Positions 10,741 to 36,487 of a stretch of 64,000 nt of DNA are shown here, piece by piece. The notes beneath the pieces are model-generated. The model ran no database searches, was not told where the DNA came from, and was given only the letters and a program-made list of their open reading frames with translations. The stretch covers positions 1,364,001 through 1,428,000 of the forward strand of contig NZ_CP089932.1 in the NCBI RefSeq assembly GCF_021365465.1. The letters are read 5' to 3'. The DNA comes from Erwinia tracheiphila (lineage in GTDB: Bacteria; Pseudomonadota; Gammaproteobacteria; Enterobacterales; Enterobacteriaceae). The position numbers and the translations under genes were made by a program. The first letter of the stretch is position 1, and each line of letters begins with the position of its first letter.

Positions 10741-11358
10741 CACTAAACCACCTCCTGTGGAGGTGGTGATCGTTCATGTGGGGCTTTGCCCGTAGAATGC
10801 CCATGCTAAATACTGCCCCGGTTTGTTACCAGCAAATCAAGGAGTAAATAGCATGAGCAGATATAAATCCGCTTCCCACGTATCCTATCGCTGTCAGTAT
10901 CATCTTGTATGGACACCGAAGTACAGATACAAAATCCTCAAAGGTCATCTCGGTAAAGAGGTTTACCGCAGCATCTACATTTACAGCAATATGAAAAAAT
11001 GCACAGTAGTTGAGCTAAATGTGCAGATAGATCATATACATCTGGTGGTGAGGACGCCGCCGGGCTTGAGTGTTTCTGAGTTGATGGGATTTGTGAAAGG
11101 GCGAACGGCCATCAGGCTGTTCGAGAAGTTTCCTTATCTCAGGAAGCACAAGCTTTGGTGTAACCACTTTTGGCAAAGAGGGTATTTTGTGGATTCGGTG
11201 GGTGCAAAAGAAGAAGTAATTCGAAGGTATGTGCGGTACCAGGACAAGGTTGCCAAAGAGGAAGAAGAAAGGCAAATACAGCTCGGACTGGAAAGGTGGT
11301 GTTTAAGCCCCCTTTTAGGGGGCGGTGTCAAAGCCACCTGCTATGCAGGTGGCTTTTT
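10741..11358 (+). mobile_element. IS200/IS605-family element
   Basis: A tnpA-only element bounded by subterminal hairpins instead of inverted repeats. The left hairpin is CCACCTCCTGTGGAGGTGG (10748-10766) and the right hairpin is AAGCCACCTGC/GCAGGTGGCTT (11331-11355). An internal terminator-like stem (GCCCCCTTTTAGGGGGC) lies at 11308-11323. The element sits directly downstream of the decayed csiE. Related to the copy at 52254-52870 and the fragment at 2688. Confidence 0.85.
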
Positions 11359-11446
11359 ACTCCTGCCTCACGGCAGTAAAGTCAGGGCTCCAGCAGCATT
11401 CCGATGCGCTGCTGCTGGAGCGCAAACGGGAACTCAGCGTGGATAA
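10853..11446 (+). CDS. tnpA: IS200-type transposase TnpA, probably extended at its 3' end
   Basis: HUH single-strand transposase of IS200. The HUH motif is in VQIDHIHLVV, and the catalytic Tyr is expected in the helix IRRYVRYQD. The start is chosen at MSRYKSASHVSYRC after an AAGGAG site; an earlier in-frame codon at 10823 lies upstream of this site. The family protein usually ends near 150 residues, soon after EEEERQIQLGLE. Here the frame runs on through both end hairpins to 11446 (197 residues), while TTTAA stands in another frame. A one-base indel near 11296-11305 has therefore probably removed the normal stop. Confidence 0.8.
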   Translation: MSRYKSASHVSYRCQYHLVWTPKYRYKILKGHLGKEVYRSIYIYSNMKKCTVVELNVQIDHIHLVVRTPPGLSVSELMGFVKGRTAIRLFEKFPYLRKHKLWCNHFWQRGYFVDSVGAKEEVIRRYVRYQDKVAKEEEERQIQLGLERWCLSPLLGGGVKATCYAGGFLLLPHGSKVRAPAAFRCAAAGAQTGTQRG

Positions 11447-16052: not shown

Positions 16053-16138
16053 AAGTAGTTGAGTAAATTACCAGGATAAATAGTTGAGTAAATTACTTGG
16101 TTAAATAGTTGACTAAAAAACTCAGGAATGTCAGACTT
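16053..16138 (+). promoter_or_regulatory. iscR promoter with three 25-bp spaced IscR (type 1) boxes
   Basis: Three direct copies start at 16053 (aagtagttgagtaaattacc), 16078 (aaatagttgagtaaattact) and 16103 (aaatagttgactaaaaaact), at a strict 25-bp period. The third (ATAGTTGACTAAAAAACTC AGGAAT) fits the type 1 IscR consensus best and contains a TTGACT -35 with a possible -10 (CAGACT) 17 bases later. In E. coli [2Fe-2S]-IscR represses its own promoter through such sites. Confidence 0.75.
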
Positions 16139-16194: not shown

Positions 16195-16692
16195 ATGAGA
16201 CTGACATCTAAAGGCCGCTATGCCGTTACCGCTATGCTTGACGTTGCACTTCACTCACATGAAGGCCCGGTGCCATTAGCTGATATTTCTGAACGTCAGG
16301 GTATCTCCTTGTCTTATCTGGAACAGCTTTTTTCCCGCCTGCGCAAGAATGGCCTGGTTGCCAGCGTGCGTGGTCCGGGTGGTGGTTACCTGTTGGGTAA
16401 AGCGTCGAACGAGATTGCCGTCGGTGCAGTGATCACAGCCGTCGATGAGTCCGTCGACGCCACAAAATGCCAGGGTAAAGAAGGTTGTCAGGGTGGAGAA
16501 CGCTGTCTGACTCATGTTCTGTGGCGCGACCTCAGTGAGCGCATCAGCGATTTCCTGAATAACATCACGCTGGCCGAGCTGGTTAATAACCAGGAAATTC
16601 TGGATGTCGCAGACCGTCAGAATAATACCGAAAAAGTGCGCATGTCGGCTGGCCGCACGCACGAAACAATTAACGTCAATCTGCGCGCCTGA
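16195..16692 (+). CDS. iscR: Fe-S cluster regulator IscR
   Basis: 165 residues. Rrf2-family winged helix ([19 protein letters not shown], then [21 protein letters not shown]) with all four cluster ligands: Cys92, Cys98, Cys104 and His107. The [2Fe-2S] form represses isc; the apo form activates suf and other type 2 sites. Complete, about 100 bases before iscS. The operon it normally controls is here reduced to iscR-iscS, so the cluster it senses must come from another machinery such as SUF. Confidence 0.97.
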
Positions 16693-16792: not shown

Positions 16793-17947
16793 ATGAAAGT
16801 ACCTGTTTACCTCGATTACGCAGCAACCACGCCAGCCGACCAGCGGGTCGCTGAAAAAATGATGCAGTATCTCACTCAGGATGGCACCTTTGGCAATCCG
16901 GCTTCACGCTCTCATCGCTATGGCTGGCAGGCTGAAGAAGCCGTCGATATTGCCCGTAATCAGGTGGCAGCGCTGATTGGAGCCGATCCACGAGAAATCG
17001 TTTTTACCTCCGGCGCGACGGAATCCGACAACCTGGCTATCAAAGGCGCTGCCTGGCAGCACCAGCAAAAAGGCCGTCATCTCATCACCTGTGAGACCGA
17101 GCATAAAGCGGTACTCGACAGTTGTATGCAGCTGGAACGTGAAGGTTTTACCGTTACCTATCTTTCGCCCCGCCCGGATGGTTTGATCGACCTGAAAGAG
17201 CTTGACGCTGCTTTTCGCGATGACACCGTGCTGGTTTCAATCATGCACGTAAATAATGAAACTGGCGTGGTGCAGGATATTGCCGCTATCGGTGAACGGT
17301 GCCGCGCTCGCGCTGTTCTTTTTCACGTTGATGCGACGCAGAGCGTTGGAAAACTCTCGGTGGATGTCAGTACGCTTCCGGTCGATCTGCTCTCTTTTTC
17401 TGCTCATAAGGTATATGGCCCGAAAGGCATTGGTGGTCTTTATGTGTGCCGCAGACCGCCCGTTCGCATCAATGCTCAGGTTCACGGTGGGGGGCATGAG
17501 CGCGGCATGCGTTCCGGCACCCTTCCTGTGCATCAGATTGTCGGAATGGGTGAGGCATATCGTCTGGCAAAAGAAGAGATGGCGGACGAAATGGCCCGCC
17601 TGAGCATACTTCGTACTAAACTGTGGAAGGGTATCAGCCAGCTTGATGATGTCTCGTTCAACGGCAGCTTTGAGCAGGGCGTAGCGGGCATTCTTAATGT
17701 CAGCTTTGGTGCTCTCGAGGGCGAAACGCTGTTGATGGCGCTGAAAGATTTGGCGGTGTCCTCCGGCTCTGCGTGCACCTCAGCCAGCATGGCCCCTTCC
17801 TACGTGCTGCGTGCGCTGGGACTTTCTGATGAGTTAGCACACAGTTCCCTGCGCTTTTCCCTCGGCCGCTTTACCACCGAAGAAGAGATCGACTTTGCGA
17901 TTAAAACGGTGAAAAATGCGGTCAATCGTCTTCGCGGCCACATGTAA
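16793..17947 (+). CDS. iscS: Cysteine desulfurase IscS, lacking the C-terminal tail
   Basis: PLP enzyme that takes sulfur from cysteine for Fe-S clusters and tRNA thiolation. The start is the ATG giving [18 protein letters not shown]. The PLP Lys is in [12 protein letters not shown] and the persulfide Cys is in [10 protein letters not shown]. The protein is 384 residues and ends RLRGHM, where E. coli IscS (404 residues) continues with about 20 more (SPLWEMYKQG and so on). That tail is part of the IscU docking site. No iscU follows; the next gene is pepB. The core is intact, so sulfur delivery to TusA/ThiI may persist. Confidence 0.95.
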
Positions 17948-18103
17948 CCTTAATAATTTTGCAGCATAATCATGCCGGTCGGTCGGTCGGTCGGCAGGCG
18001 GGTTTAGCGGGACGGTAATAAACAACGCGTTATTGTAATGTCCGGCCGTTTCAAGAGTGGCCGCGATTACAGAACAAATAAAAAACGAATAAGGAGCCAT
18101 GCG
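17948..18103. other. Junction where iscU-iscA-hscB-hscA-fdx-iscX would be expected
   Basis: Only 156 bases separate iscS from pepB, whereas about 4 kb with six genes occupies this place in E. coli. The stretch contains a short tandem repeat (CCGGTCGGTCGGTCGGTCGG, 17975-17994) and the pepB ribosome-binding site (AAGGAG). I find no fragment of iscU, fdx or iscX in any frame, nor any insertion sequence. Confidence 0.85.
17975..17995 (+). repeat. GGTC tetranucleotide tandem repeat
   Basis: Four copies of GGTC (in ccGGTCGGTCGGTCGGTCggc) in the noncoding junction after iscS. Such a repeat is a possible slippage or deletion end point. Confidence 0.8.
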
Positions 18104-19387
18104 ATGACAACGACGCTAATGAAAATATCACTGTCAACGGCAGCGGCCGATCCGCGCTGGGGAGAAAAAGCGATCCTTACCAGCAACGACAGTGGATTCA
18201 CCATTCATCTTACGGGTGAGGATGAACTTGCCGTTATTCAACGCGCGGCGCGAAAAATTAATGGTCAGGGGATCCGTAACGTCAGCCTCAATGGTGAATG
18301 GGATTTGGAAAAAAGCTGGGCATTTTGGCAGGGTTTCCGCAGCCCTAAAGGCGAAAACCAGGTGGAATGGCCAACGCTTGATGCAGCCGATGCGGCGGAG
18401 TTCGAACATCGTTACAAAATTATTAACTGGGTGCGTGACACCATCAATCTTCCTGCAGAAGAACTGAGTCCTGAGCAATTGACTCAACGTGCGGTTGATC
18501 TGCTCAATGCGGTTGGCGGTGATAAAGTCAGTTACCGTATCACCAAGGGTGAAGATCTGCGTGAGCAAGGCTACATGGGGCTGCATACGGTTGGTCGCGG
18601 CTCCACACGCAGCCCGGCGTTACTGGTGCTGGATTACAACCCCAGTGGTGATGAGGCTTCGCCTGTCTTCGCCTGTCTGGTGGGTAAAGGTATTACATTT
18701 GACACCGGTGGTTATAGTCTTAAGCCCAGCGGTTCTATGGATTCGATGAAATCTGATATGGGTGGTGCAGCGACACTGGCTGGCGCACTGGCACTCGCCG
18801 TCAGCCGCGGGCTGAACAAGCGCGTTAAGCTCTACCTGTGCTGCGCTGACAATATGGTGAGCGGCAACGCGTTCCGCCTCGGCGACATCATTCGCTATCG
18901 CAATGGCAAAACGGTGGAAGTGATGAACACCGATGCAGAAGGGCGCCTGGTCTTGGCTGATGGTCTGATTGACGCCAGTCAACAGCGGCCAGAACTTTTG
19001 ATTGATGCCGCCACCCTGACCGGGGCTGCCAAAACCGCGCTGGGCAATGACTATCATGCACTGTTCAGCTTCGACGACAAACTGGCGCAGGATTTGTTAA
19101 GTTGTGCGGCCAGCGAGAACGAGCCTTTCTGGCGTTTGCCGCTGGCGGAGTTCCACCGAAACCATCTGCCATCTAATTTTGCCGATCTCAATAATATTGC
19201 GGCACCTTCTCATATGGCGGGGGCCAGTTCTGCGGCAGCGTTCCTTTCTTATTTTGTTGAGCGCTATCAGCAGGGATGGTTGCACATCGATTGTTCAGCG
19301 ACCTATCGTAAAAGTGCGGTTGACCAGTGGGCTGCCGGAGCAACCGGACTGGGCGTGCGCACCGTAGCCAATATCTTGCTGAAATAA
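18104..19387 (+). CDS. pepB: Peptidase B (M17 leucyl aminopeptidase family)
   Basis: 427 residues, the same as E. coli PepB when the ATG after AAGGAGCCATGCG is used; earlier in-frame codons lack this spacing. Cytoplasmic hexameric two-metal aminopeptidase acting in peptide turnover. Motifs: [15 protein letters not shown] (metal Lys/Asp) and [14 protein letters not shown] (signature). Complete. In relatives it ends the isc operon; here it follows iscS directly. Confidence 0.97.
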
Positions 19388-21190: not shown

Positions 21191-21541
21191 CGTGGCCTCG
21201 TTGGTTGTGCTGGTATACAAAGTGTTAACTATACTGGCAGGTAGTACAAGACATCGCTGGCATTCATCATTTAAAGGTAGAAACGGCATTATCTTTCGCA
21301 AGGGGGCATATCAATATAAAGGGTAAGAATCTGAGCAAGAAGATCAAATGTTGTGGAATAAAACGGATTATTCGTATGAAAAGAAAGTGATTTTTTTATG
21401 TTGACGTTATGTTCGTCAGGTATTTTTTTGAAGTAAAATATCGTTTTTTGAAAGTTAAAAAAATATAACTATTTAATATAAATGAAGATTTATGGGGTGA
21501 TGTTGATATTTTTATCTTCTAAAATTAACGGAGATTTTACT

Positions 21542-23342
21542 ATGGGTTCGCCAACGAAAGTGTCATCTAAATATTGCAGCTATAAAGAAAAATTACTACT
21601 AAAAAATAACAGAACCATTAAAACACAGTCTGACTATAGACATGAAAAAAAATTATTTACTAAGCAGATCGAATATATCAAGAATAATCCTGGGTTGCAC
21701 AGTGGTAATATAAAAAGGCATTGTTTAAGTAATATCTTTCTGAGATGTATCCCGGATACAGTGTGTGCGGTAAAGTTTATTTGTGATGGGGTATTAAAGA
21801 TCCCATCGCAAAATTCTTCTGTTCAACGAATTGGTCATTTCACAGGTAATTCTCTGTGTAAAAGTGTGAGCGAGAACGGGGATGCGAACGAAGTTATTAG
21901 CAATAACTCGAATAATCTTCACTGCTATAAAGGTAAATCGCTTTACCGACGAGGTGGAAAAAAAGAACTGATTTTTCTAAAATAAAAAATACAGGAAGTA
22001 AAAAAGAAAAAACAGATGAAATCAAAAAAAATAATATAAAAATGGACGCAGATGTTTCTGATGAAACTAGTCTGTTGAAAAAGGATTATCAAGAAAAAAA
22101 AGAGGCATTTTTACAGGTGGTAATAATTTTTTCGGTGTTGATGCTGTACCAGTCACAATAAATGAAAATGAAGTTCTGAACAATTTTCCTTTTAGTAAAT
22201 TTATTTATCATGATAACCAAAAAAAAGAAATTTTAAATAAATTGGTAAATAGAATTATAGATCATGGTTTTTCACAAAATGATGACAGAGCTAATCTCGA
22301 ATATATTACAAGAATAATCAGTGCCGATGAGCCAATCCTACATTCAGTGTTCAAAAAACCAGAAATAAAAGGCCTTGGGTTGGATGACTGGAACGATGAT
22401 AAAAAAGATTTTTTAGAAATTACTGTGGGTGAAAACGGAGAAAAAAGAACTATATCTAAAGATGAATTTATTAAATTCTCTGCATCCGAGCGAGGAATGA
22501 TTATATTGCGTAACGCACTGGATGAAAATATTGTTGCAGGGTTAATTGATAATAGTTCAGAAAAAATAACCAGTTTTTCCGAAAAGGAGTTTCTTAACGC
22601 TGATGGTGACGTTGAAGGCAGGTTTCTATTGTTAGTAACTGAAAAAAATAATGGAGGAGTGACATCTGAAAAGGATGAGACTAAGAATAAAAAATCTGGA
22701 GAGCTTATAACGTTTGGTATAAGTCCTGAAATAGCGAGGCTGATTAGTGATTTTATGCACACGGAATATTTAAGAGATTCGAATAAGTTCACTATTAACG
22801 ATCTCTCCGTAAGCAAAAACTATGCAGCGATGCTGGCAGACTTTACCTCTGAAGAGGAAAAAATAATTTTACATAAAAGGTTGGGTGATGAAGTCACACC
22901 TGTTGAGCTAAAAAATTCGTTATCTGTCCCAGAGAGGGCTGCTTTTTACAGCCGGGATCCCTTAACGGGTGTGAGGACAGAGATTCTCATCAGGTTGCAT
23001 AGAGAGAAGTATGATAATTCTGATATAGATACATTTATTTACTTAAAACCCACTGAAAAGAAGAATATTTATTCTACGTACAAAGTTGAAAATAATAAAG
23101 TAGAACAACTGGGTAAAAATGTCTTCCTGAATGAGGAAACCCTCTCATGGCATTATGAAGATACTCCGAAAGAAGAAAGTATTGAGATCGATTTTGTTGA
23201 AGGTAATAAGCAGGTAGAGCTTTATGGTCGTTATTATAATGCAAAAATGAATGGCAAAGACAAATATGTTATCGAAGTTTTAAGGAATGATGGTGTGAAG
23301 CGAGAAATTCCGCTGTACCAGGAACCTTTATCAAAGAAATAG
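21542..23342 (+). pseudogene. Large AT-rich effector-like gene, N-terminal part in three frames
   Basis: I do not recognise the family. From the ATG at 21542 (good AACGGAG site) a polar, Ser/Asn/Lys-rich N-terminus runs to 21985 in frame 2. After an A7 tract (21958-21964) the sense continues in frame 1 (RTDFSKIKNTGSKKEK). After an A8 tract (22094-22101) it continues in frame 0 (GIFTGGNNFFGVDAVPVTIN) without a stop to 23342. Both changes equal the loss of one A. The C-terminal part (VELYGRYYNAKMNGKDKYVI, EVLRNDGVKREIPLYQEPL) looks like a beta-rich module. There is no signal peptide. The polar start and size suggest a secreted effector, but that is inference. Confidence 0.55.
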
Positions 23343-23373
23343 CATCTTTCGACAAATCATTATTATTCTGTAT

Positions 23374-25731
23374 TTGATCATTGCTAATGAAAACCTTATT
23401 AATAAAATAGCCACAGATGTTAGCGATGATTATACGTATTTTACGTTAGGTAATAATAACAATAAATATTACGGTAATGGGGGTATATATAATAAGGTTT
23501 ATAAAAACACAGAGGTGAATTATATTTTATCCAGATATGTGGAAATGAATGGAAAAATTGTCCCTGTAAGAAATAAGAAGCACGCAGTTCAGGGGGCATT
23601 GTATGAGGTTTTTAACACAATGGATCCAACGGCAGGTTACCCCATTGAATGGGATGGCAGACGTTGGCTATTTGAATCGCCAACATCAATGCATGTATCA
23701 GATAAATTAAAAAACAGTATCACACCTGATATGTACGAAAAGAATATTGATACGAGTTTACTCTCTTCACCTAACGATGAGGGGCTAAGGCAAGACAGTG
23801 AAAATAACAAATATATAAAGATAAATGATAACTTTGTTCGTATTATTCAAGGCAAGACGCAATACTTTATCAGGAAGGAAAACGGAGAGAAATTATATCT
23901 TGAGTTAAGAGATGGCAAGTTCTTCCCGGAAAATATGGTACCTAAAACGGGCGGAAAGATTTTTAAGCGGAATGTGGGAAGTGATTGTCCTGATTGGCAG
24001 AAACTTTATGATCAACTGGGAGATATTGCAAGTAAAGATAAAATTATTACCGTACGTCATCGTGGGGATTCAGATACAAATGTAGCTGAAAACAGCCTCA
24101 GTGCGTTCAGGCTCTCATATAAAATGTGTCGTCCAGCAATAGAAACAGATGTTCTGTTAACTAAAGATAATCAGCCTGTGATATTTCATGATGTCAGAAT
24201 AGGTAAGATGATGGAACCCACTTATGACCCCGACAGAAACACGGGGTCAAATGTCCTTCTCAGCCAAATGATGTTAGCTGAACTTAAAAGAAAACCACTT
24301 CTTGATCCAAGAAGGCGGCCTACAAGAGACACAATCATTACGGTAGAAGAGTTACTCAGGGATTACCGTGAACAAAATGGACAAGCCTTGCTCTATCTCG
24401 AAGTAAAAGAGCCTAAGCTTATTATGCGTGTGGCGAAAATTATTACTGATGAGGCCAAGTCAGATCCTACTTTAATTAAAAGAGTTATCGTTAAATTCAA
24501 TATGGCAGAGTATCCAACCTATGTTGATTGGGTTGCCGGGTTAAGGGATATTGGGGCAGATATTAATATTATGGCAAACCCTGTAATGAGTCCTGCTGCG
24601 GCAGAAAGAATTAATAAACTGCCTGAGTCTGCTATCGCGAAACCCGAGGGTGACCCTTTGCACGACAACGCAAGCAGGGCTGTTTATTGGTGGTCCTCTG
24701 CTCATGGACAGAATGTTCCTAACGTTGAGATTGTTATTAAAAACTCAAAAAGTGGATTTATAAAAACACAACATATCCCATCCGTACAAGGCGGTTATGA
24801 CAGGCCAGAAAACCTTTACATGAATAATACTATTCCTGGTTCACCTGCCTATATGATTGCCATTGTGAAAAAAAATGGCAAGCCTTTAGGTACTTATGTA
24901 CCCGTAGGCGATCGCATTATGTGGAGAGATGACGTTGTGTCGGGTGTTACTGTACCTAATACTTCTAATCATAAAAAAAGAATTGATATTACCAAAGCCT
25001 ATTACAACAACGATTCCCAATGTTGCTACAGCCTGAAGGACAGGTTGGCCAAAAATGAACTTGAAGATATTAGAGAAAATCTCGCATGGAATCGGGCAAT
25101 TGGTGCTAATGTCATCACTGCCGACGATACTGACAGTATTGATAATTATTTTGCGAAGAGAGGTAATCTGGACAAGATTTCAATACCGAATCCACACTAT
25201 CCAAGGCAAAGTATGCAATCAACCCTCGCCTGGGCATTGCAATATTGGTCTACCCCGGACGGGGTAACGGCAAAATTTAAAGGTTGGGGCGGCGGTTCAT
25301 CACCGTTGATTTGGAATGGTCAGGTGTGTATATACGATAACAGCTATTCAAAATACCCATGGGTTTATGCATGCAAGTACGCTGACAAAATTAGTTATAG
25401 TAATAAACTCAAAATGAGGGTAATTGAAAATGTTAAATACGGTGCTGTAAATCAAATTTACTCTAATGATGATAAATTCTGTCTTAGTGGAAGAGATGGA
25501 GATACTTCATATCTGAAATTTACTTCTAACTGCAACCCTGAAAATACTGAAACACATTTCTGGCATACGGAAAACTATAAATTACGCAATTTATACACCG
25601 GAGATGATACAAAATACATCGAGTTTTATCGGGGGGGAGTTTATTATGGTATTGCATATGGGTTGCTTAGAAATACAAATACGCCAGACGATTGGGCAAG
25701 CTGGTATCTGGAAAAAATAGAAGAGGAATAA
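23374..25731 (+). CDS. GDPD-domain protein (possible toxin/effector C-terminal half)
   Basis: 785 residues from TTG; the frame is open further upstream, so it may be the continuation of the preceding gene after one more shift. Residues about 215-620 contain a glycerophosphodiester phosphodiesterase-type domain. Its motifs are TVRHRGDSDTNVAENSLSAF (catalytic His, Arg, Glu), AIETDVLLTKDNQPVIFHD (Glu/Asp metal ligands, second His), LYLEVKEPK and ANVITADDTDSI near its end. The N-terminal part has a module YPIEWDGRRWLFESPTSMHV. A roughly 150-residue tail with several Tyr, Trp and Cys is unassigned and could be a binding domain. No signal peptide is seen. Likely phosphodiester or lipid hydrolase; target unknown. 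Confidence 0.65.
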   Translation: MIIANENLINKIATDVSDDYTYFTLGNNNNKYYGNGGIYNKVYKNTEVNYILSRYVEMNGKIVPVRNKKHAVQGALYEVFNTMDPTAGYPIEWDGRRWLFESPTSMHVSDKLKNSITPDMYEKNIDTSLLSSPNDEGLRQDSENNKYIKINDNFVRIIQGKTQYFIRKENGEKLYLELRDGKFFPENMVPKTGGKIFKRNVGSDCPDWQKLYDQLGDIASKDKIITVRHRGDSDTNVAENSLSAFRLSYKMCRPAIETDVLLTKDNQPVIFHDVRIGKMMEPTYDPDRNTGSNVLLSQMMLAELKRKPLLDPRRRPTRDTIITVEELLRDYREQNGQALLYLEVKEPKLIMRVAKIITDEAKSDPTLIKRVIVKFNMAEYPTYVDWVAGLRDIGADINIMANPVMSPAAAERINKLPESAIAKPEGDPLHDNASRAVYWWSSAHGQNVPNVEIVIKNSKSGFIKTQHIPSVQGGYDRPENLYMNNTIPGSPAYMIAIVKKNGKPLGTYVPVGDRIMWRDDVVSGVTVPNTSNHKKRIDITKAYYNNDSQCCYSLKDRLAKNELEDIRENLAWNRAIGANVITADDTDSIDNYFAKRGNLDKISIPNPHYPRQSMQSTLAWALQYWSTPDGVTAKFKGWGGGSSPLIWNGQVCIYDNSYSKYPWVYACKYADKISYSNKLKMRVIENVKYGAVNQIYSNDDKFCLSGRDGDTSYLKFTSNCNPENTETHFWHTENYKLRNLYTGDDTKYIEFYRGGVYYGIAYGLLRNTNTPDDWASWYLEKIEEE

Positions 25732-25777
25732 TGTATATAAGTGTTAACTTGATACTCACCGAATGACAATTTGTAAC

Positions 25778-25820
25778 CAGATACGGCGAATGATGGAAGT
25801 TTCGTCGTATCTGTTTTTTA
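25778..25820. terminator. Terminator between the GDPD gene and the LacI-type gene
   Basis: CAGATACG ... CGTATCTG with a run of six T and more AT after it, in the space between convergent genes. Confidence 0.8.
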
Positions 25821-25922
25821 GCACTGTGTTTATTATTATGTACGATAAGTGAAAAAATTTCAAATTTGCTTAACATTAGTAAAATATATTATGTCGCTAA
25901 TGTGTTCATATTGAGGCCCGCT

Positions 25923-28082
25923 TCAATATTTTGCTAGTCTGGCATTGATTTTCTGGATGCTATCGACAATGTTAAGTTTTCTATCAATAATTTGAATTAT
26001 CTCACCGCCTATAATATCTTCAGCCTTGTGTAAATCAAAATACTTTCCATCGTCAAACGCATTTTCACGAATGCCACAGATTGAATTTTTTTCTACTAAT
26101 GAAATCCACGGATAACAATCTATAATTTTTGCATTGTTGTACTGATGACGAGAAGCTGAACTTCCTCCAAGCAGAACGATCTGTTCAATAATTGTGGGGG
26201 AATAGAGCCATTGTAAAAATAAAGCAGACTGTGTTTTTTTGACAGAACTCTTTATCACTCCAATTGATCCTCCTCCTAGTAAAGGCTTGCTTCCGGGTAC
26301 GATAGAATACCCGATGGTTGAGGAAAGCTCGTTACCTGCAACATTTGATAATAAGTTATTATAGACAAGCAGCATGACAAGATTACCTTGTTCAAAATGG
26401 GTAATTGCATCTTTCCACCAGTTACTATTGATACGTAAGTTATGGTCCAGGCTGGTCAGATATTGTTTAAGCACATCTTCTGCTATCTGTTGATCAAGTT
26501 GTGCGGGCGGTTTTTTATTTAACAGTCGTCCACCTTTAGCGTAGTAGCGCAGTAAAAACTCTGTAGCTATTACTTCTGTTCCCCCCGTATTGACGCATGA
26601 GCCTGTTGGTGTTATTTCACCTTGTCTTTGAAGTTCTGAAAAAAATAAAGATAGCCTGTCAAATTGCTCGAAACTCTCAGGTACATTCATAGATTGTCGA
26701 AATTTTTCAAAATATATTCTCCTGATTTTCTGGTCTTCAAACAGGTCCCTACGGTAAAAAAGCATCTGAGCACTGGAGTCAAAAGGTATAGCATAAGTAA
26801 TATTATTAACTTTACTATATCTGTTAGTTATTTCATTTGGGAAGTCATCAAGAAGATAGGATAAATCTGGTGTTAGTTTTTTTAATGGTTCAAAAATTTC
26901 TTTCGCTAACACTGGCAACGTTGCTATATCTATTCTTATTAAATCGTATTCGATAAACTTTCTCGGGTTTTTTGTAATTTCAATAAAATTATTGAATGGT
27001 GTTTTAGTTATTTCAACGTTAATTCCCGTTATTCTAAAAAAATGCGGTAATAACTTTTCGAGTACATCTGTCGTTGGACTCGGGATAGTGAGGATCTTTA
27101 TTTTATCTGGGAAGTCTTTAAGATCGTTTTTTGAATAAAAATGTCGATAGTTATCGTTGTATTTGGGCTGTATGTTATTCTTCTTATTTGAGGCGCCTGT
27201 TAATTTTTCAGCCAGTTCTACTCCGAATGTTTCATAATTTATTGAGGAACAGTAAATATTTTCTTCAAGGCGTAATTCTTCACCGGAAAATGTATAGATG
27301 GGAGGGCAGCTCAGATTAGAACTAAGCTGACTTGCATTTTTAAGGTGGCGAACTTTATCAAAATCGGAACAGACGATAACATCAGGTACAGAATCTTGAA
27401 AAAATCGAAAAGCAGTTCTGTGACATTCAGAATCGGTACAAGAGTAATGCTGTAATTTTATATTTTTCCCTCTGGAAAGTGCCATATTCAAATGTTGCAT
27501 AAATTTTTTCATATTCGAATATTTTTCAGGCTCGGTAAACACACCAATTTTTTTATACCCTTTCTTTAAAATTTCTGCAGTGAGATGATTGATTTCATTT
27601 TGGTGTTCGATGTTAAAATAACATTTTGTTCCGGTTGGCTCTCTGTAAATGAACAGGATCTTTTCCTGCGAAATTGAGAGTTGCTTATAATATATATCAG
27701 CGGCAGACAGACAGCTCACCACAATAACTCCCTGGCATTGGTGGCTTGCCAGAAGTTTTACCTGTTTTTTTTCGATATCTTGATTATCGTTAGTTATAAA
27801 TATTTCAACATGATAGTCATGTTTCGATAAGATATTATTAACACCACTATAAAGGTCATGATAGCGCTCTGCGCGCAAATTAGGTACAACCAGCGCAATG
27901 CGTCTGGAGCTTCCCCCACGTAGCGTTTGTGCCTGCACATTGACCTGATAGCCAAGTTGTTCGGCTGCTTTTTTAACGGCACTGATTTTAACTGCACTTA
28001 CATTGCCGCGTTTGTTGAGGACATTCGAAACAGTTCCATGTGAAACCCCTGCCAGCCTGGCTATATCTTTGATTGTTGCCAT
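25923..28082 (-). CDS. LacI-type regulator fused to an extracellular-type solute-binding domain
   Basis: 719 residues from the ATG giving MATIKDIARLAGVSHGTVSN, about twice the usual LacI length. LacI helix-turn-helix and hinge (about 1-60), then a type 1 periplasmic-binding-like sugar domain (about 60-320: RRIALVVPNLRAERYHDLYS, CQGVIVVSC). A second, SBP-type sugar-binding domain follows (about 335-700: YDLIRIDIATLPVLAKEI, ITYAIPFDSSAQMLFYRRDL, GYSIVPGSKPLLGGGSIGV). No signal peptide is present, so both ligand domains are cytoplasmic. Divergent from the PhnP-like and MFS genes, which it probably controls. Such double sensing is uncommon; function is inferred. Confidence 0.8.
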   Translation of the reverse strand: MATIKDIARLAGVSHGTVSNVLNKRGNVSAVKISAVKKAAEQLGYQVNVQAQTLRGGSSRRIALVVPNLRAERYHDLYSGVNNILSKHDYHVEIFITNDNQDIEKKQVKLLASHQCQGVIVVSCLSAADIYYKQLSISQEKILFIYREPTGTKCYFNIEHQNEINHLTAEILKKGYKKIGVFTEPEKYSNMKKFMQHLNMALSRGKNIKLQHYSCTDSECHRTAFRFFQDSVPDVIVCSDFDKVRHLKNASQLSSNLSCPPIYTFSGEELRLEENIYCSSINYETFGVELAEKLTGASNKKNNIQPKYNDNYRHFYSKNDLKDFPDKIKILTIPSPTTDVLEKLLPHFFRITGINVEITKTPFNNFIEITKNPRKFIEYDLIRIDIATLPVLAKEIFEPLKKLTPDLSYLLDDFPNEITNRYSKVNNITYAIPFDSSAQMLFYRRDLFEDQKIRRIYFEKFRQSMNVPESFEQFDRLSLFFSELQRQGEITPTGSCVNTGGTEVIATEFLLRYYAKGGRLLNKKPPAQLDQQIAEDVLKQYLTSLDHNLRINSNWWKDAITHFEQGNLVMLLVYNNLLSNVAGNELSSTIGYSIVPGSKPLLGGGSIGVIKSSVKKTQSALFLQWLYSPTIIEQIVLLGGSSASRHQYNNAKIIDCYPWISLVEKNSICGIRENAFDDGKYFDLHKAEDIIGGEIIQIIDRKLNIVDSIQKINARLAKY

Positions 28083-28239
28083 AAATAACCTCTTAAATCC
28101 GACAATACCCATCCTACCATCAGTGCATCAATAGCAACAAATCTGTGAGGGGTGTAAAACATTAGAATTTGCATAATTGACACGTACCAAAAAAAGTTTC
28201 TCCTGATTAACATTGAGCAGCAGTACCGTCTGAGAATTA

Positions 28240-29064
28240 ATGAACATGCAGCTTCATTTTTTAGGAACAGCAGCTTCAGAGGGAATTCCCAATCCCTATT
28301 GTTCCTGTGATTTATGTGAGAAAACGCGGATTATTGGTGGGAAAGATATCCGCACGCGTTCTTCTGTAATTATTGATGACGTTATGCAAATCGATATATC
28401 TCCTGAATACAGTTATCAGTTGATGCGTGATACTGTGGATGCCAGAAAAATAACGAATTTATTTTTTACGCATACTCATCCTGATCATTTCAATGTTGGA
28501 GAGCTTTACAGCCGGATGGAAGGGTTTGGTCACAATATTACCCACCCATTGAAAGTACATGGTAATGATATTGCTATAGGGAAATGTGCTCAACTTCTTG
28601 AAAATTACAGTGACGAGCGTTTTATACTCAATAAGATCATACCTTTTAATGATGTGGAAATCGATGGTTATACTATTACACCACTACTGGCAAATCATGC
28701 AGTATGGGAGTTTTGTTATGTTTATTTAATAAAAAAAGGAAACAAGGCAATATTTTATGGTCATGATTCGGGTTGGTTTCCCGAGTTGACATGGCAATAT
28801 CTTGATGGAAAAAAAATAGATCTTTTAGTTTTGGAATGCACAATAGGAAGTAATGGTAACAGTAAAACTAATGGACATATGAGTTTTGAAACAATTATTG
28901 AAGTCAAAAAGAAAATGATATCCATGGGTTGTTTGAATGAGTGTAGTAAAATAATTCTCTCGCATATTTCACATAATGTCAAAATGACCCATTCTGAAAT
29001 TAATGAAAAAATGAAACCGCACGGAATATGCATTGCACACGATGGATTGAAAATTAATCTGTAG
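28240..29064 (+). CDS. PhnP-like metallo-beta-lactamase-fold phosphodiesterase
   Basis: 274 residues. Starts MNMQLHFLGTAASEGIPNP. Has a Cys cluster (YCSCDLCEKTR) like the structural zinc site of PhnP and the metal motif HTHPDH in FFTHTHPDHFNVG, with further ligands in YGHDSGW and the C-terminal LSHISHN. PhnP cleaves 5-phosphoribosyl 1,2-cyclic phosphate in phosphonate use; no phn genes are nearby. First gene of an operon with the MFS gene (14-base gap). A cytoplasmic cyclic-phosphate or similar phosphodiesterase is likely; the substrate is unknown. Confidence 0.75.
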   Translation: MNMQLHFLGTAASEGIPNPYCSCDLCEKTRIIGGKDIRTRSSVIIDDVMQIDISPEYSYQLMRDTVDARKITNLFFTHTHPDHFNVGELYSRMEGFGHNITHPLKVHGNDIAIGKCAQLLENYSDERFILNKIIPFNDVEIDGYTITPLLANHAVWEFCYVYLIKKGNKAIFYGHDSGWFPELTWQYLDGKKIDLLVLECTIGSNGNSKTNGHMSFETIIEVKKKMISMGCLNECSKIILSHISHNVKMTHSEINEKMKPHGICIAHDGLKINL

Positions 29065-29078
29065 AAGGAAAAATCTAT

Positions 29079-30293
29079 ATGGAATTTAAAAAAACGCCAC
29101 GGCTTTTTATTATGATGTATGCTCAGTACTTTGTGCAAGGGGCCTGGAATATGACGATGGGTCTGGTATTAAGCACTTATGGTATGTCAGAAATTATTGG
29201 CACAGCTTATGGTATGTTAGGTTTGGCGACAATACTTTCACCACTGATCATAGGTATGATAGCAGACAGATTTTTTTGTTCTCAAAAAGTAATGGCAGTG
29301 TTGCATTTAGTCAACGCCGGGATTTTATTATTGACACCCCAATATATCATCGCTCATAACGATGTAATGTTTTTGGTTATGGTTTTTATCGTTGGGCTGC
29401 TTTTCTACCCTACAGCTGCATTAGCTAACAGTATAAGTTTTTGCCACGTCAGTGGTGTTAAGACCTTTCCAATTATACGTGTGTTTGGCACTTTCGGATT
29501 TATGTCAATAGGTTTTATACTCGGACAGTTTGGCTTCTCTGGAAGCATAATGACATGGTATATTGCGAGTTTTTCGGGTGCATGTCTTGGGCTGTACTGT
29601 TTGACGTTGCCTGATACACCGCCTAAAGCGAAAGGAGAAAAATTTAAAATTAATGACCTGCTTTGTCTTGATGCATTATTGCTTTTTAAAGACAGAAATT
29701 TCAGTATTTTCATGCTATCAACATTTGTACTTATGATCCCGAAAACAGCATATTCTGCTTATATACCCGTTTTTCTCAAATCATTGGGATTTGATAATGC
29801 GGCAACTATGCTGCAAGTCGGTACCGTATTTGAGATTATTTTTATGTTTGTACTTGCATTCTCTCTGATGAAATTTGGTTTTAAGAGAGTTATTTTATTG
29901 GGGGCGATCTGCTGGATTATAAGATGTTTGCTTCTGTCTCACTCAGCAATGGATAATAATATAGCCTATGTTTTAATTGCCTTGATGTTGCAAAGCTTTT
30001 GCTGGGATTTTTTCTTTACTGCGGGAGATATTTTTGTTAACAGCAAGGCTGGTGAGAAAATTAAAGCACAGGCGCAGAGTTTACGTTTTATTATATCGAA
30101 CGGAATTGGTTTAATGTTTGCTTCCACCGTCTGTGGAAAAATATTCAACAGCACAGTAACATTGACTGATTCTCAGTCTCTATTGCAATGGAAAACATTT
30201 TGGTTATATCCTATGGTAATTGCGGCAGTTGTTTCTGTGGCTTTCTTCATTTTTTTCAGGGATGAGCCGAAAACAGACTTTCCAGAGCAGTAA
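29079..30293 (+). CDS. MFS transporter, nucleoside:H+ symporter (NupG-like) family
   Basis: 404 residues, about 12 membrane helices. The N-terminus (FIMMYAQYFVQGAWNMTMG) and GMLGLATILSPLIIGMIADR follow the NupG/XapB/YegT pattern. Co-directional and 14 bases after the PhnP-like gene, so the two likely act together: import of a nucleoside-like or phosphodiester compound, then hydrolysis. The divergent LacI-SBP protein is the probable regulator. The exact substrate cannot be told. Confidence 0.8.
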   Translation: MEFKKTPRLFIMMYAQYFVQGAWNMTMGLVLSTYGMSEIIGTAYGMLGLATILSPLIIGMIADRFFCSQKVMAVLHLVNAGILLLTPQYIIAHNDVMFLVMVFIVGLLFYPTAALANSISFCHVSGVKTFPIIRVFGTFGFMSIGFILGQFGFSGSIMTWYIASFSGACLGLYCLTLPDTPPKAKGEKFKINDLLCLDALLLFKDRNFSIFMLSTFVLMIPKTAYSAYIPVFLKSLGFDNAATMLQVGTVFEIIFMFVLAFSLMKFGFKRVILLGAICWIIRCLLLSHSAMDNNIAYVLIALMLQSFCWDFFFTAGDIFVNSKAGEKIKAQAQSLRFIISNGIGLMFASTVCGKIFNSTVTLTDSQSLLQWKTFWLYPMVIAAVVSVAFFIFFRDEPKTDFPEQ

Positions 30294-32341: not shown

Positions 32342-33517
32342 ATGTCTGAACACAACGTGACTTCATCGTCTGCTCCCTCTGCCATTGCCGTGGCTGAAGC
32401 TAAAAAAGAAAAAATCAATTTACTCGATCTGAATCGCCAGCAAATGCGCGAATTTTTCGTCAGCCTGGGTGAGAAACCTTTTCGTGCCGATCAGGTAATG
32501 AAGTGGATTTACCATTACTGTTGTGATGATTTCGATCAAATGACCGACATTAATAAGGTTTTTCGCGGCAAGCTGAAAGCACTGGCTGAAATCCGTGCTC
32601 CGGAAGTGGCGGAAGAACAGCGTTCTGCGGATGGCACTATTAAGTGGGCTATTTCGGTCGGTGGACAGCAGGTTGAAACCGTTTATATTCCGGAAAAAGA
32701 TCGTGCCACACTGTGCGTCTCCTCACAGGTTGGTTGTGCGCTGGAATGCAAATTTTGCTCGACGGCCCAGCAGGGGTTCAACCGTAATTTGCGCGTATCA
32801 GAGATCATCGGCCAAGTCTGGCGTGCCGCTAAAATTATTGGGGCGTCAAAGATTACCGGACAGCGCCCGATTACGAATGTTGTCATGATGGGAATGGGGG
32901 AGCCGCTGCTAAATCTCAATAATGTCGTACCGGCAATGGAAATCATGCTCGACGATTTTGGTTTTGGTCTGTCCAAACGTCGTGTGACACTGTCTACTTC
33001 CGGCGTCGTTCCCGCGCTGGACAAACTTGGTGATGTTATTGACGTGGCGTTGGCCATCTCTTTACATGCACCAAATGACACAATACGTGATGAAATCGTT
33101 CCTATTAATAAAAAATACAATATTGCGACTTTTCTGGATGCCGTCAGCCGTTACATTGCGAAATCGAATGCAAATCAGGGACGTGTGACCATTGAGTATG
33201 TGATGCTTGACCATGTCAATGACAGCACGGATAACGCCCATGAACTTGCGGCTTTACTGAAGGATACGCCCTGCAAAATCAATCTGATTCCCTGGAACCC
33301 CTTCCCCGGCGCACCTTACGGACGCAGCTCGAACAGTCGTATCGATCGTTTCTCTAAAGTATTGATGGATTATGGTTTTACTACTATTGTGCGTAAGACT
33401 CGCGGTGATGATATTGATGCAGCCTGTGGGCAGCTTGCTGGTGAGGTCATTGATCGTACCCGGCGGACAATGCGTAAAAAAATGGCTGGTGAGCCGATTT
33501 CTGTGAAAGCGCTCTGA
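32342..33517 (+). CDS. rlmN: 23S rRNA (A2503-C2)/tRNA (A37-C2) methyltransferase RlmN
   Basis: 391 residues. Radical SAM enzyme with the cluster motif [14 protein letters not shown], preceded by SQVGC. N-terminal accessory domain ([18 protein letters not shown]) and the C-terminal catalytic Cys region ([15 protein letters not shown]). It depends on a [4Fe-4S] cluster, so it is an Fe-S client in a genome missing the isc scaffold genes at their usual place. Complete. Confidence 0.97.
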
Positions 33518-35365: not shown

Positions 35366-36487
35366 ATGCATAATGAAGCACCCATCACCCGTCGCAAATC
35401 GAAACGTATTTACGTCGGCAAGGTGCCTGTGGGCGACGGTGCACCCATCGCCGTCCAGTCAATGACGAATACGCGAACAACGGATGTTGACGCGACGGTC
35501 AGGCAAATCAAAGCGCTGGAGCGCGTCGGCGTGGATATTGTCCGCGTGTCGGTTCCCACTATGGATGCTGCGGAAGCTTTTCACCTGATTAAGCAACAGG
35601 TTGACGTTCCTTTGGTTGCCGATATTCATTTTGATTATCGTATTGCTCTGAAAGTGGCTGAATATGGCGTGGATTGTCTGCGGATCAACCCCGGTAATAT
35701 CGGTAATGAAGAGCGTATCCGCCAGGTCGTGGATTGTGCCCGCTATAATAACATTCCCATCCGTATCGGCGTAAATGCCGGGTCCCTGGAAAAGGATTTA
35801 CAGGAAAAATATGGCGAGCCAACCCCTCAGGCATTGCTCGAATCCGCGATGCGCCATGTAGATCATCTTGATCGCCTTAACTTTGACCAGTTCAAAGTCA
35901 GCGTCAAAGCGTCCGATGTCTTTCTTGCGGTAGAATCGTACCGCCTTCTGGCAAAGCAAATCGATCAGCCGCTGCACCTTGGTATCACTGAAGCGGGGGG
36001 GGCACGGGCGGGATCGGTTAAGTCTGCCATCGGTCTTGGGTTGCTTTTATCGGAAGGGATTGGCGATACGCTGCGCATTTCTCTGGCCGCCGATCCGGTT
36101 GAAGAGGTAAAAGTAGGTTTTGATATCCTGAAGTCACTGCGTATTCGCTCACGGGGTATCAATTTTATTGCTTGTCCCACCTGTTCCCGCCAGGAGTTCG
36201 ATGTTATCGGCACGGTAAATGAGCTTGAACAGCGGCTGGAAGATATTATCACGCCTATGGATGTTTCTATCATCGGCTGCGTGGTAAACGGGCCGGGTGA
36301 GGCCCTGGTCTCCACCCTCGGCGTGACGGGCAGTAATAAGAAAAGTGGTTTCTATGAAGACGGCGTGCGCCTTCGCGAGCGTCTTGACAATCATGACATG
36401 ATTGACCAACTTGAGGCGCGCATCCGTGCCAAAGCCGCGATGATGGACCAATCGCGACGCATTGATGTTCAGCAGGTTGAAAAATAA
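35366..36487 (+). CDS. ispG: 4-hydroxy-3-methylbut-2-enyl diphosphate synthase
   Basis: 373 residues. Penultimate step of the MEP isoprenoid pathway, using a [4Fe-4S] cluster. TIM-barrel half ([18 protein letters not shown], in the IAVQSMTNT context) and C-terminal cluster domain with ligands in [11 protein letters not shown] and [10 protein letters not shown]. Essential Fe-S enzyme, so another cluster assembly system must supply it here. Complete; 38 bases after rodZ. Confidence 0.97.

Follow-up and report, generated by a model that had tools for sequence, protein, structure and literature searches.

The isc Locus in the Window

The window, by which we mean the whole 64-kb stretch of DNA that was analysed, carries iscR, iscS and pepB in this order on its forward strand. 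The iscR gene (16195..16692), which encodes the [2Fe-2S] regulator of the isc and suf genes, was assigned from its translation and from a match to the NCBIfam model TIGR02010 (IscR, 222.4 bits with a cut-off of 207.55), and the translated protein carries a C-x5-C-x5-C-x2-H stretch that we take to be the cluster ligand region. In the iscR leader lies a putative IscR operator region (16055..16127, forward strand), assigned by resemblance, with three repeats of the type tagttgaNtaaa...; two related repeats are found at the same place in G029, a genome of the same genus, and the additional repeat in the window possibly represents extra IscR half sites. The iscS gene (16793..17947) was delimited from the sequence and its translation, with an ATG at 16793, a stop codon ending at 17947 and 384 codons in between, and encodes a 384-aa cysteine desulfurase that lacks the tail for docking of IscU. 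An earlier note on this DNA had placed pepB directly behind iscS, and this was borne out by the coordinates and by a junction that is common to nearly the whole genus: the gene for aminopeptidase B (18104..19387, forward strand; NCBIfam NF003450, 747.2 bits with a cut-off of 437), which in relatives adjoins the isc operon on its 3′ side, has its ATG at 18104, at a distance of 156 bp from iscS.

The 156-bp gap between the two genes (17948..18103, no strand assigned) is the place where G029 has iscU, iscA, hscB, hscA, fdx and iscX. A tblastn search of the 64-kb window with Kluyvera proteins gave no match for IscU, IscA, HscB, HscA, Fdx or IscX, and no isc gene remnant was found by tblastn in the gap itself; PepB (73%) and SseB (61%) were both found in the same window. 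In a comparison with E. coli at the DNA level, suhB-trmJ alone matched (~76%), and the iscS-pepB junction was unmatched. Within the gap, the tetranucleotide GGTC occurs four times in tandem (17977-17994). The window encodes the Fe-S proteins listed in the earlier note, namely RlmN (32342-33517) and IspG (35366-36487) in addition to IscR (16195-16692).

The iscS product passes the models for IscS-type enzymes, scoring 657.5 bits with TIGR02006 (cut-off 643.2, profile positions 1-379 of 402) and 670.3 with PRK14012 (cut-off 548), and the catalytic residues Lys206, His104 and, in the long loop, Cys328 are present, the codon of Cys328 being read in the sequence at 17774..17776 (forward strand). 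Residues 1-381 of the protein align gaplessly to E. coli IscS (PDB 1p3w, 404 residues), and the chain terminates with RLRGHM three residues further on, so that about 20 residues are missing at its end, just as had been read from the sequence before. Residues 382-384 (GHM) and the stop codon occupy 17936..17947 (forward strand), where IscU-positive relatives run on as SPLW(E/D)M...W..H, and with the end at residue 384 the C-terminal IscU-docking helix (379-391, tail to 404) is not intact. All six TusA contacts (W45, E49, D52, R55, R220, and R237) are present in the window IscS.

Absence of the ISC Scaffold and Frataxin in Most of the Genus

The genome from which the window comes consists of 4,958,521 bases in two contigs with a completeness of 100. 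A profile search of this complete 4.96 Mb genome gave no match to IscU (PF01592), the control search with the same profile being positive in 12 of 14 genomes, E. coli among them, and HscB (PF07743) had no match anywhere in the complete genome. The genome does hold a complete sufABCDSE operon, with six ORFs in order (locus L096), in which SufB and SufD were recognised by PF01458, and SufA, SufC, SufS and SufE were named from sequence and order. The claim of the earlier note that the genes from iscU to iscX are missing stands for all six in the window and, genome-wide, for IscU and HscB, the result for HscA, Fdx, IscA and IscX being one on the window only; the search it proposed for iscU elsewhere and for the suf genes ended with no IscU and with the suf operon complete. 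A mis-assembled junction, or another place for the isc genes in the genome, can be rejected for IscU and HscB from the lack of PF01592 and PF07743 in this two-contig genome, and the identical junction was read at the locus in 34 other genomes of the genus, L173, a 5.6 kb fragment, among them; we give such an account practically no weight. PF01592 is missing from all but one of the 35 other genus genomes and, therefore, neither chance nor mis-assembly explains the absence.

The exception is G029, which has a complete isc operon (iscRSUA-hscBA-fdx-iscX) between trmJ and pepB, at the same site as in the window, and an IscS of 404 residues with an intact tail. Between the window and G029 the identity of IscS is only 76%, yet it is 93% for IscR, 89% for SuhB and 87% for TrmJ. 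Horizontal regain of isc by G029 from a close relative was considered, but the isc proteins of G029 group with L124 inside an Erwiniaceae-like clade (support 0.97), and its isc and cyaY genes both lie in neighbourhoods seen elsewhere, which favours retention. Core matches to SufB/SufD were found in 36 of 36 genus genomes, with two matches each in 35 and one in the fragmented G001, and in one of 24 outgroup genomes. In G018 (L100) and G031 (L156), IscX is the sole isc gene beside pepB and IscU is absent, as if the lone IscX were a leftover of stepwise loss at an intermediate stage.

Frataxin (CyaY, PF01491) was found in one of 37 genus genomes, and this was G029, where cyaY lies between an lptM-like gene and cyaA in the dapF-cyaA neighbourhood (gene names read from sequence); the window's genome has the same neighbourhood, with cyaY missing from it. 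A weak match to CyaY over 30 residues in G020 (E 0.004) and G031 (E 0.019) was dropped as chance, being located beyond dapF and away from the cyaY site. Across 149 genomes sampled from the family, 93 had an IscU match and 85 a CyaY match, and CyaY without IscU occurred in none of the 85 CyaY-positive genomes; the same rule, that all genomes with cyaY also have iscU, has been reported (PMC4440780, in part; papers so marked are cited from a portion of their text). Unlike in that bare rule, here cyaY and iscU are both gone across nearly a whole enterobacterial genus, one congener of which keeps both. IscU without CyaY was seen in eight genomes of the sample, which are G551, six genomes of 0.4-1.0 Mb, and G445 of 5.4 Mb. 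The IscU match of G551 (L121) is a nif-type NifU only, with no IscU beside iscS, while G445 (L122) has a full isc operon and no CyaY match, and its IscS keeps R112, R223 and R225. IscS itself was found in 141 of the 149 family genomes at E 1e-120, the eight genomes without it being 0.2-0.6 Mb in size.

Recurrence of the Loss in the Family

A marker tree of 96 rows was calculated from SuhB, TrmJ, IscR, PepB and SseB; the first tree was made without L030, L102, L107, L111, L120 and L173, which had too few markers, and without three duplicates. In the 96-row tree the IscU-negative rows formed eight separate clades or single rows, i.e., the main Erwinia clade with the window, a second Erwinia clade next to G029, Pantoea, L110, a large putative Sodalis-like clade, Lonsdalea, a near-Yersinia group, and L116, where clade names were partly assigned by us and the IscU state for part of the tree loci was read from the iscS neighbourhood only. 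On a 79-row tree, thinned by us from the 96 rows, at least seven changes of IscU state were needed, and a single clade of all IscU-negative rows was rejected (AU p 3.7e-11). Erwinia and Pantoea as one loss gave a borderline result (AU p 0.0497). The tree is still compatible with a single loss for the IscU-negative Erwinia as a whole (AU p 0.169), and separate losses in the two Erwinia groups are by this value not established. The loss of the ISC scaffold is real; it spans the genus, has recurred in the family and, together with the disappearance of frataxin and with wear that reaches other partner sites of IscS, extends what the earlier note had described.

Partner Sites of IscS With and Without IscU

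The alignment comprised 163 IscS, of which 100 were classed as IscU-positive and 62 as IscU-negative, and residues were counted without L108 (ambiguous residues), L123, L155, L163, L164 (duplicates) and L075 (too little downstream DNA). The tail motif SPLW(E/D)M with the final W..H is present in 100/100 IscU-positive and 0/62 IscU-negative proteins; the tail is conserved with IscU and decayed without it, and the loss of the partner and the loss of the docking tail thus do fit each other, as had been proposed. Arg112 follows the same division, being present in 100/100 IscU-positive and 2/62 IscU-negative proteins, and the window has a Met at this position (codon 17126..17128, forward strand). 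The two IscU-negative IscS that still have R112 are L114 and L107. Both R112 and R116 touch ferredoxin in a docking model that has been tested with mutants (PMC3750173, in part). At other sites the residue is kept in 18 (E309), 46 (E347), 45 (R223), 52 (R225), 57 (M315) and 43 (P385) of the 62 IscU-negative proteins, while W45, E49, D52 and R55 and the catalytic K206, H104 and C328 are present in all 62, and R220 and R237 in 61.

Among the core columns, 138 are invariant in the IscU-positive proteins, and 57 of these vary in the IscU-negative ones. IscU contacts on IscS (309-316, 347, and 379-391) and the list of TusA contacts are available from earlier work (PMC2854127, in part). By permutation among the invariant core columns, with uncorrected P values, the IscU core contacts change above expectation (six columns, P 0.013), the R220/R223/R225 patch for CyaY/IscX is less clear (P 0.08), and the TusA contacts show no significant advantage in conservation over the remaining invariant columns (P 0.22). 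A triple change in the R223/R225 patch affects ThiI too (PMC2854127, in part) and weakens TusA binding (PMC11302665, in part) and, therefore, the wear at R223/R225 may touch the retained routes as well. Four further residues, F89, Y123, S324 and L333, are invariant in the 100 IscU-positive and variable in the 62 IscU-negative proteins; we know of no partner contact at these sites.

Because R112 had been picked from the first data set, an additional set of 20 small genomes of our choice was fetched (0.4-1.2 Mb, probably endosymbionts), 12 of them IscU-positive and eight IscU-negative. R112 was present in 11/12 IscU-positive versus 0/8 IscU-negative genomes of this set (Fisher p 7e-5) and SPLWEM in 12/12 versus 0/8, and W45 and E49 were found in 20/20. 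The TusA contact R237 was lost in four of the eight IscU-negative genomes and changed from R to K in two of the 12 IscU-positive ones, which speaks against too simple a picture. R112 was also present in five of six IscU-positive small genomes that lack CyaY, and in G445 mentioned above, and we conclude from its persistence without CyaY that frataxin does not hold R112 in place. When independent pairs on the tree were compared, R112 went with IscU in 6/6 (p 0.031), while W45 and R237 differed in 0/6, R223 in about 2/6 and E309 in about 3/6.

These data bear on a simpler account of the short tail, by which the deletion of iscU clipped iscS at its 3′ end and all other changes are functionally meaningless drift. 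A deletion reaching into iscS would yield exactly such a junction, and the window IscS with its 384 aa is among the shortest; the ends of IscU-negative IscS, however, vary from 379 to 405 aa, with five of the 62 still having 404 residues with a changed tail, and so many different ends argue that the tail decayed stepwise. Moreover, Arg112, E309, E347 and other sites distant from the 3′ end changed in parallel, Arg112 repeatedly and in independent pairs, and the dN/dS of IscS stays at 0.03-0.10 (see below), so we regard a mere by-product of the deletion as highly improbable. The stepwise decay of partner sites on an enzyme that has lost its partners can be carried further to a more speculative proposal, in which loss of Arg112 would be the entry step of a convergent and partly adaptive respecialisation of IscS to a dedicated TusA-type donor, followed by the docking helix and E309/E347, and the constraint on Arg112 would come from ferredoxin or the IscU complex and not from frataxin. 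This we put forward only tentatively, and the odds are rather against it; if true, Arg112 would everywhere mark a functional ISC system and could be read from IscS alone.

Rate of Change and Probable Retained Role of IscS

The branch lengths of IscS and of the marker proteins were compared on a fixed topology with L108 and L123 left out. The IscS/marker ratio was 0.31 where branches were IscU-positive or mixed, against 1.61 for the IscU-negative branches taken together; within IscU-negative clades of more than one row it was 1.28-1.91, and on their stems 0.59-4.36. The medians for terminal branches were 0.31 (n = 37) versus 1.63 (n = 52), with a p of 1.8e-15 without kinship correction. IscU-negative IscS evolves about five times faster relative to the marker proteins. 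The dN/dS ratio of IscS ranged from 0.03 to 0.10 across the ten IscU-negative pairs compared and from 0.015 to 0.032 across six IscU-positive ones, and these low values indicate that IscU-negative IscS is under purifying selection for function.

A TusA-family protein (PF01206) is encoded in 37 of 37 genus genomes, the window's own genome (G000) included. In E. coli, IscU competes with TusA for IscS (PMC11302665, in part), and the loss of IscU should therefore favour TusA. From the sequences we infer that IscS may be kept for tRNA thiolation, as the earlier note had suggested, a role that fits the kept TusA contacts and the presence of the TusA-family protein. The region upstream of sufA was scored with a consensus that we take to be that of the Fur box; the best match reached 14/14 for E. 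coli and 13 for G029, and lay at 9-12 in 32 IscU-negative genus genomes, in a comparison that covered 33 of the 37 genus genomes and included only two IscU-positive comparators and two IscU-negative lineages. A putative IscR-site block before sufA is identical in 31 of the 32 IscU-negative genomes and G029. The suf genes of E. coli are repressed by Fur and activated by IscR (PMC8593673, in part). The pattern upstream of sufA suggests that suf may have become less iron-controlled in the IscU-negative genomes.

The reading that joins the observed and recurrent gene losses, the pattern of residues, the faster evolution of an IscS still under selection, and the presence of SUF and the TusA family in the genus is that the ISC scaffold was lost, that SUF builds the clusters, and that IscS survives as sulfur donor for TusA-type routes, and we hold this to be very probable. 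In this course the isc locus lost iscU, iscA, hscB, hscA and fdx, and later iscX, and cyaY disappeared from an unlinked locus; SUF would make the Fe-S clusters, those of IscR, IspG and RlmN included. The iscR and iscS genes were retained, and IscS would stay a PLP-dependent cysteine desulfurase whose persulfide sulfur would go to TusA-type acceptors for tRNA thiolation and, probably, for molybdenum cofactor. With no IscU, ferredoxin or CyaY to serve, the enzyme no longer has its C-terminal docking helix or Arg112, and its core IscU contacts and Arg223/Arg225 have been going more slowly, with the TusA contacts being kept; the Enterobacteriaceae took this course several times. That SUF does all of the cluster building, and that TusA-type transfer is the job retained by IscS, are the parts of this course that we infer.

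Alternatively, the lone IscS might still take part in cluster building without IscU, by giving sulfur to SUF or directly to apo-proteins, a part that has been proposed for the single enzyme of M. tuberculosis. M. tuberculosis, which has SUF and a single iscS, offers a precedent in that an iscS mutant is impaired in Fe-S enzymes (PMC10848736, in part), and IscS is retained in 48 of the 56 IscU-negative genomes of the family sample; on the other hand, the window's genome encodes its own SufS and SufE, and the wear is concentrated on known IscU and ferredoxin contacts while the TusA contacts stay. A continued part of IscS in cluster building is in our judgement unlikely, though less so than the clipping of its tail as a by-product, and we prefer its role as a sulfur donor for TusA-type routes beside SUF.

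Comparison With Known Systems

The combination of SUF with a lone IscS is known from M. tuberculosis (PMC10848736, in part), where SUF is likewise the main system and isc is reduced to iscS, with no iscU, hscA, hscB or iscA beside it. In that distant phylum, however, iscS lies next to trmU and the state is ancient, whereas here iscR-iscS has stayed where enterobacteria had it ancestrally, the loss happened recently and more than once, and IscU-positive sisters exist. With the isc operon of E. coli and G029 the window shares the trmJ-pepB site and orthologous iscR and iscS, but iscU to iscX are missing and IscS is without its IscU-docking tail. Most bacteria have one Fe-S system, mostly SUF, while E. 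coli and related enterobacteria have both, with ISC as the house-keeping and SUF as the stress system in the enterobacterial model (PMC11559095, in part); here, in contrast, nearly a whole enterobacterial genus has SUF but no ISC scaffold, and other large genera of the family probably share this state. Our literature search found no statement that the ISC scaffold is missing from Erwinia, Pantoea or their relatives; a phylogenomic survey may list these genera, and the distribution itself may already be in print. As far as we searched, three points are new, namely that the loss recurred among enterobacteria, that frataxin, encoded at an unlinked locus, went as well while one sister genome stayed intact, and that IscS is worn at the sites of particular partners, with Arg112 in the lead; the recurrent enterobacterial variant of a state known from M. 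tuberculosis was likewise absent from the literature searched.

Whole enterobacterial genera that have come to be without the ISC scaffold or frataxin, several times independently and with IscU-positive sisters available, provide a natural mutational scan of IscS, in which residues that decay with IscU and ferredoxin are separable from those that serve TusA. IscS is a hub enzyme, and its human relative NFS1 works with frataxin. Two predictions follow: fast-growing enterobacteria should be able to live with SUF only, and suf, to judge from the weakening of its Fur-like box, should have been released from iron control.

Other Features of the Window

Two further regions of the window were noted. 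Between sseA and the ndk/rlmN region, a block at 21482-30293, missing from the corresponding position of G029 (L095), contains a 366-aa ORF, a 785-aa GDPD-domain protein, a LacI-type regulator joined to a part that resembles solute-binding proteins, a protein with an MBL fold and a nucleoside symporter; the 785-aa GDPD protein weakly resembles the effector AvrBs2 (33 bits; cut-off 1000). An IS200-like transposase (Y1_Tnp) lies at 10823-11446 between glyA and a csiE-like gene, whose name was read from the sequence.
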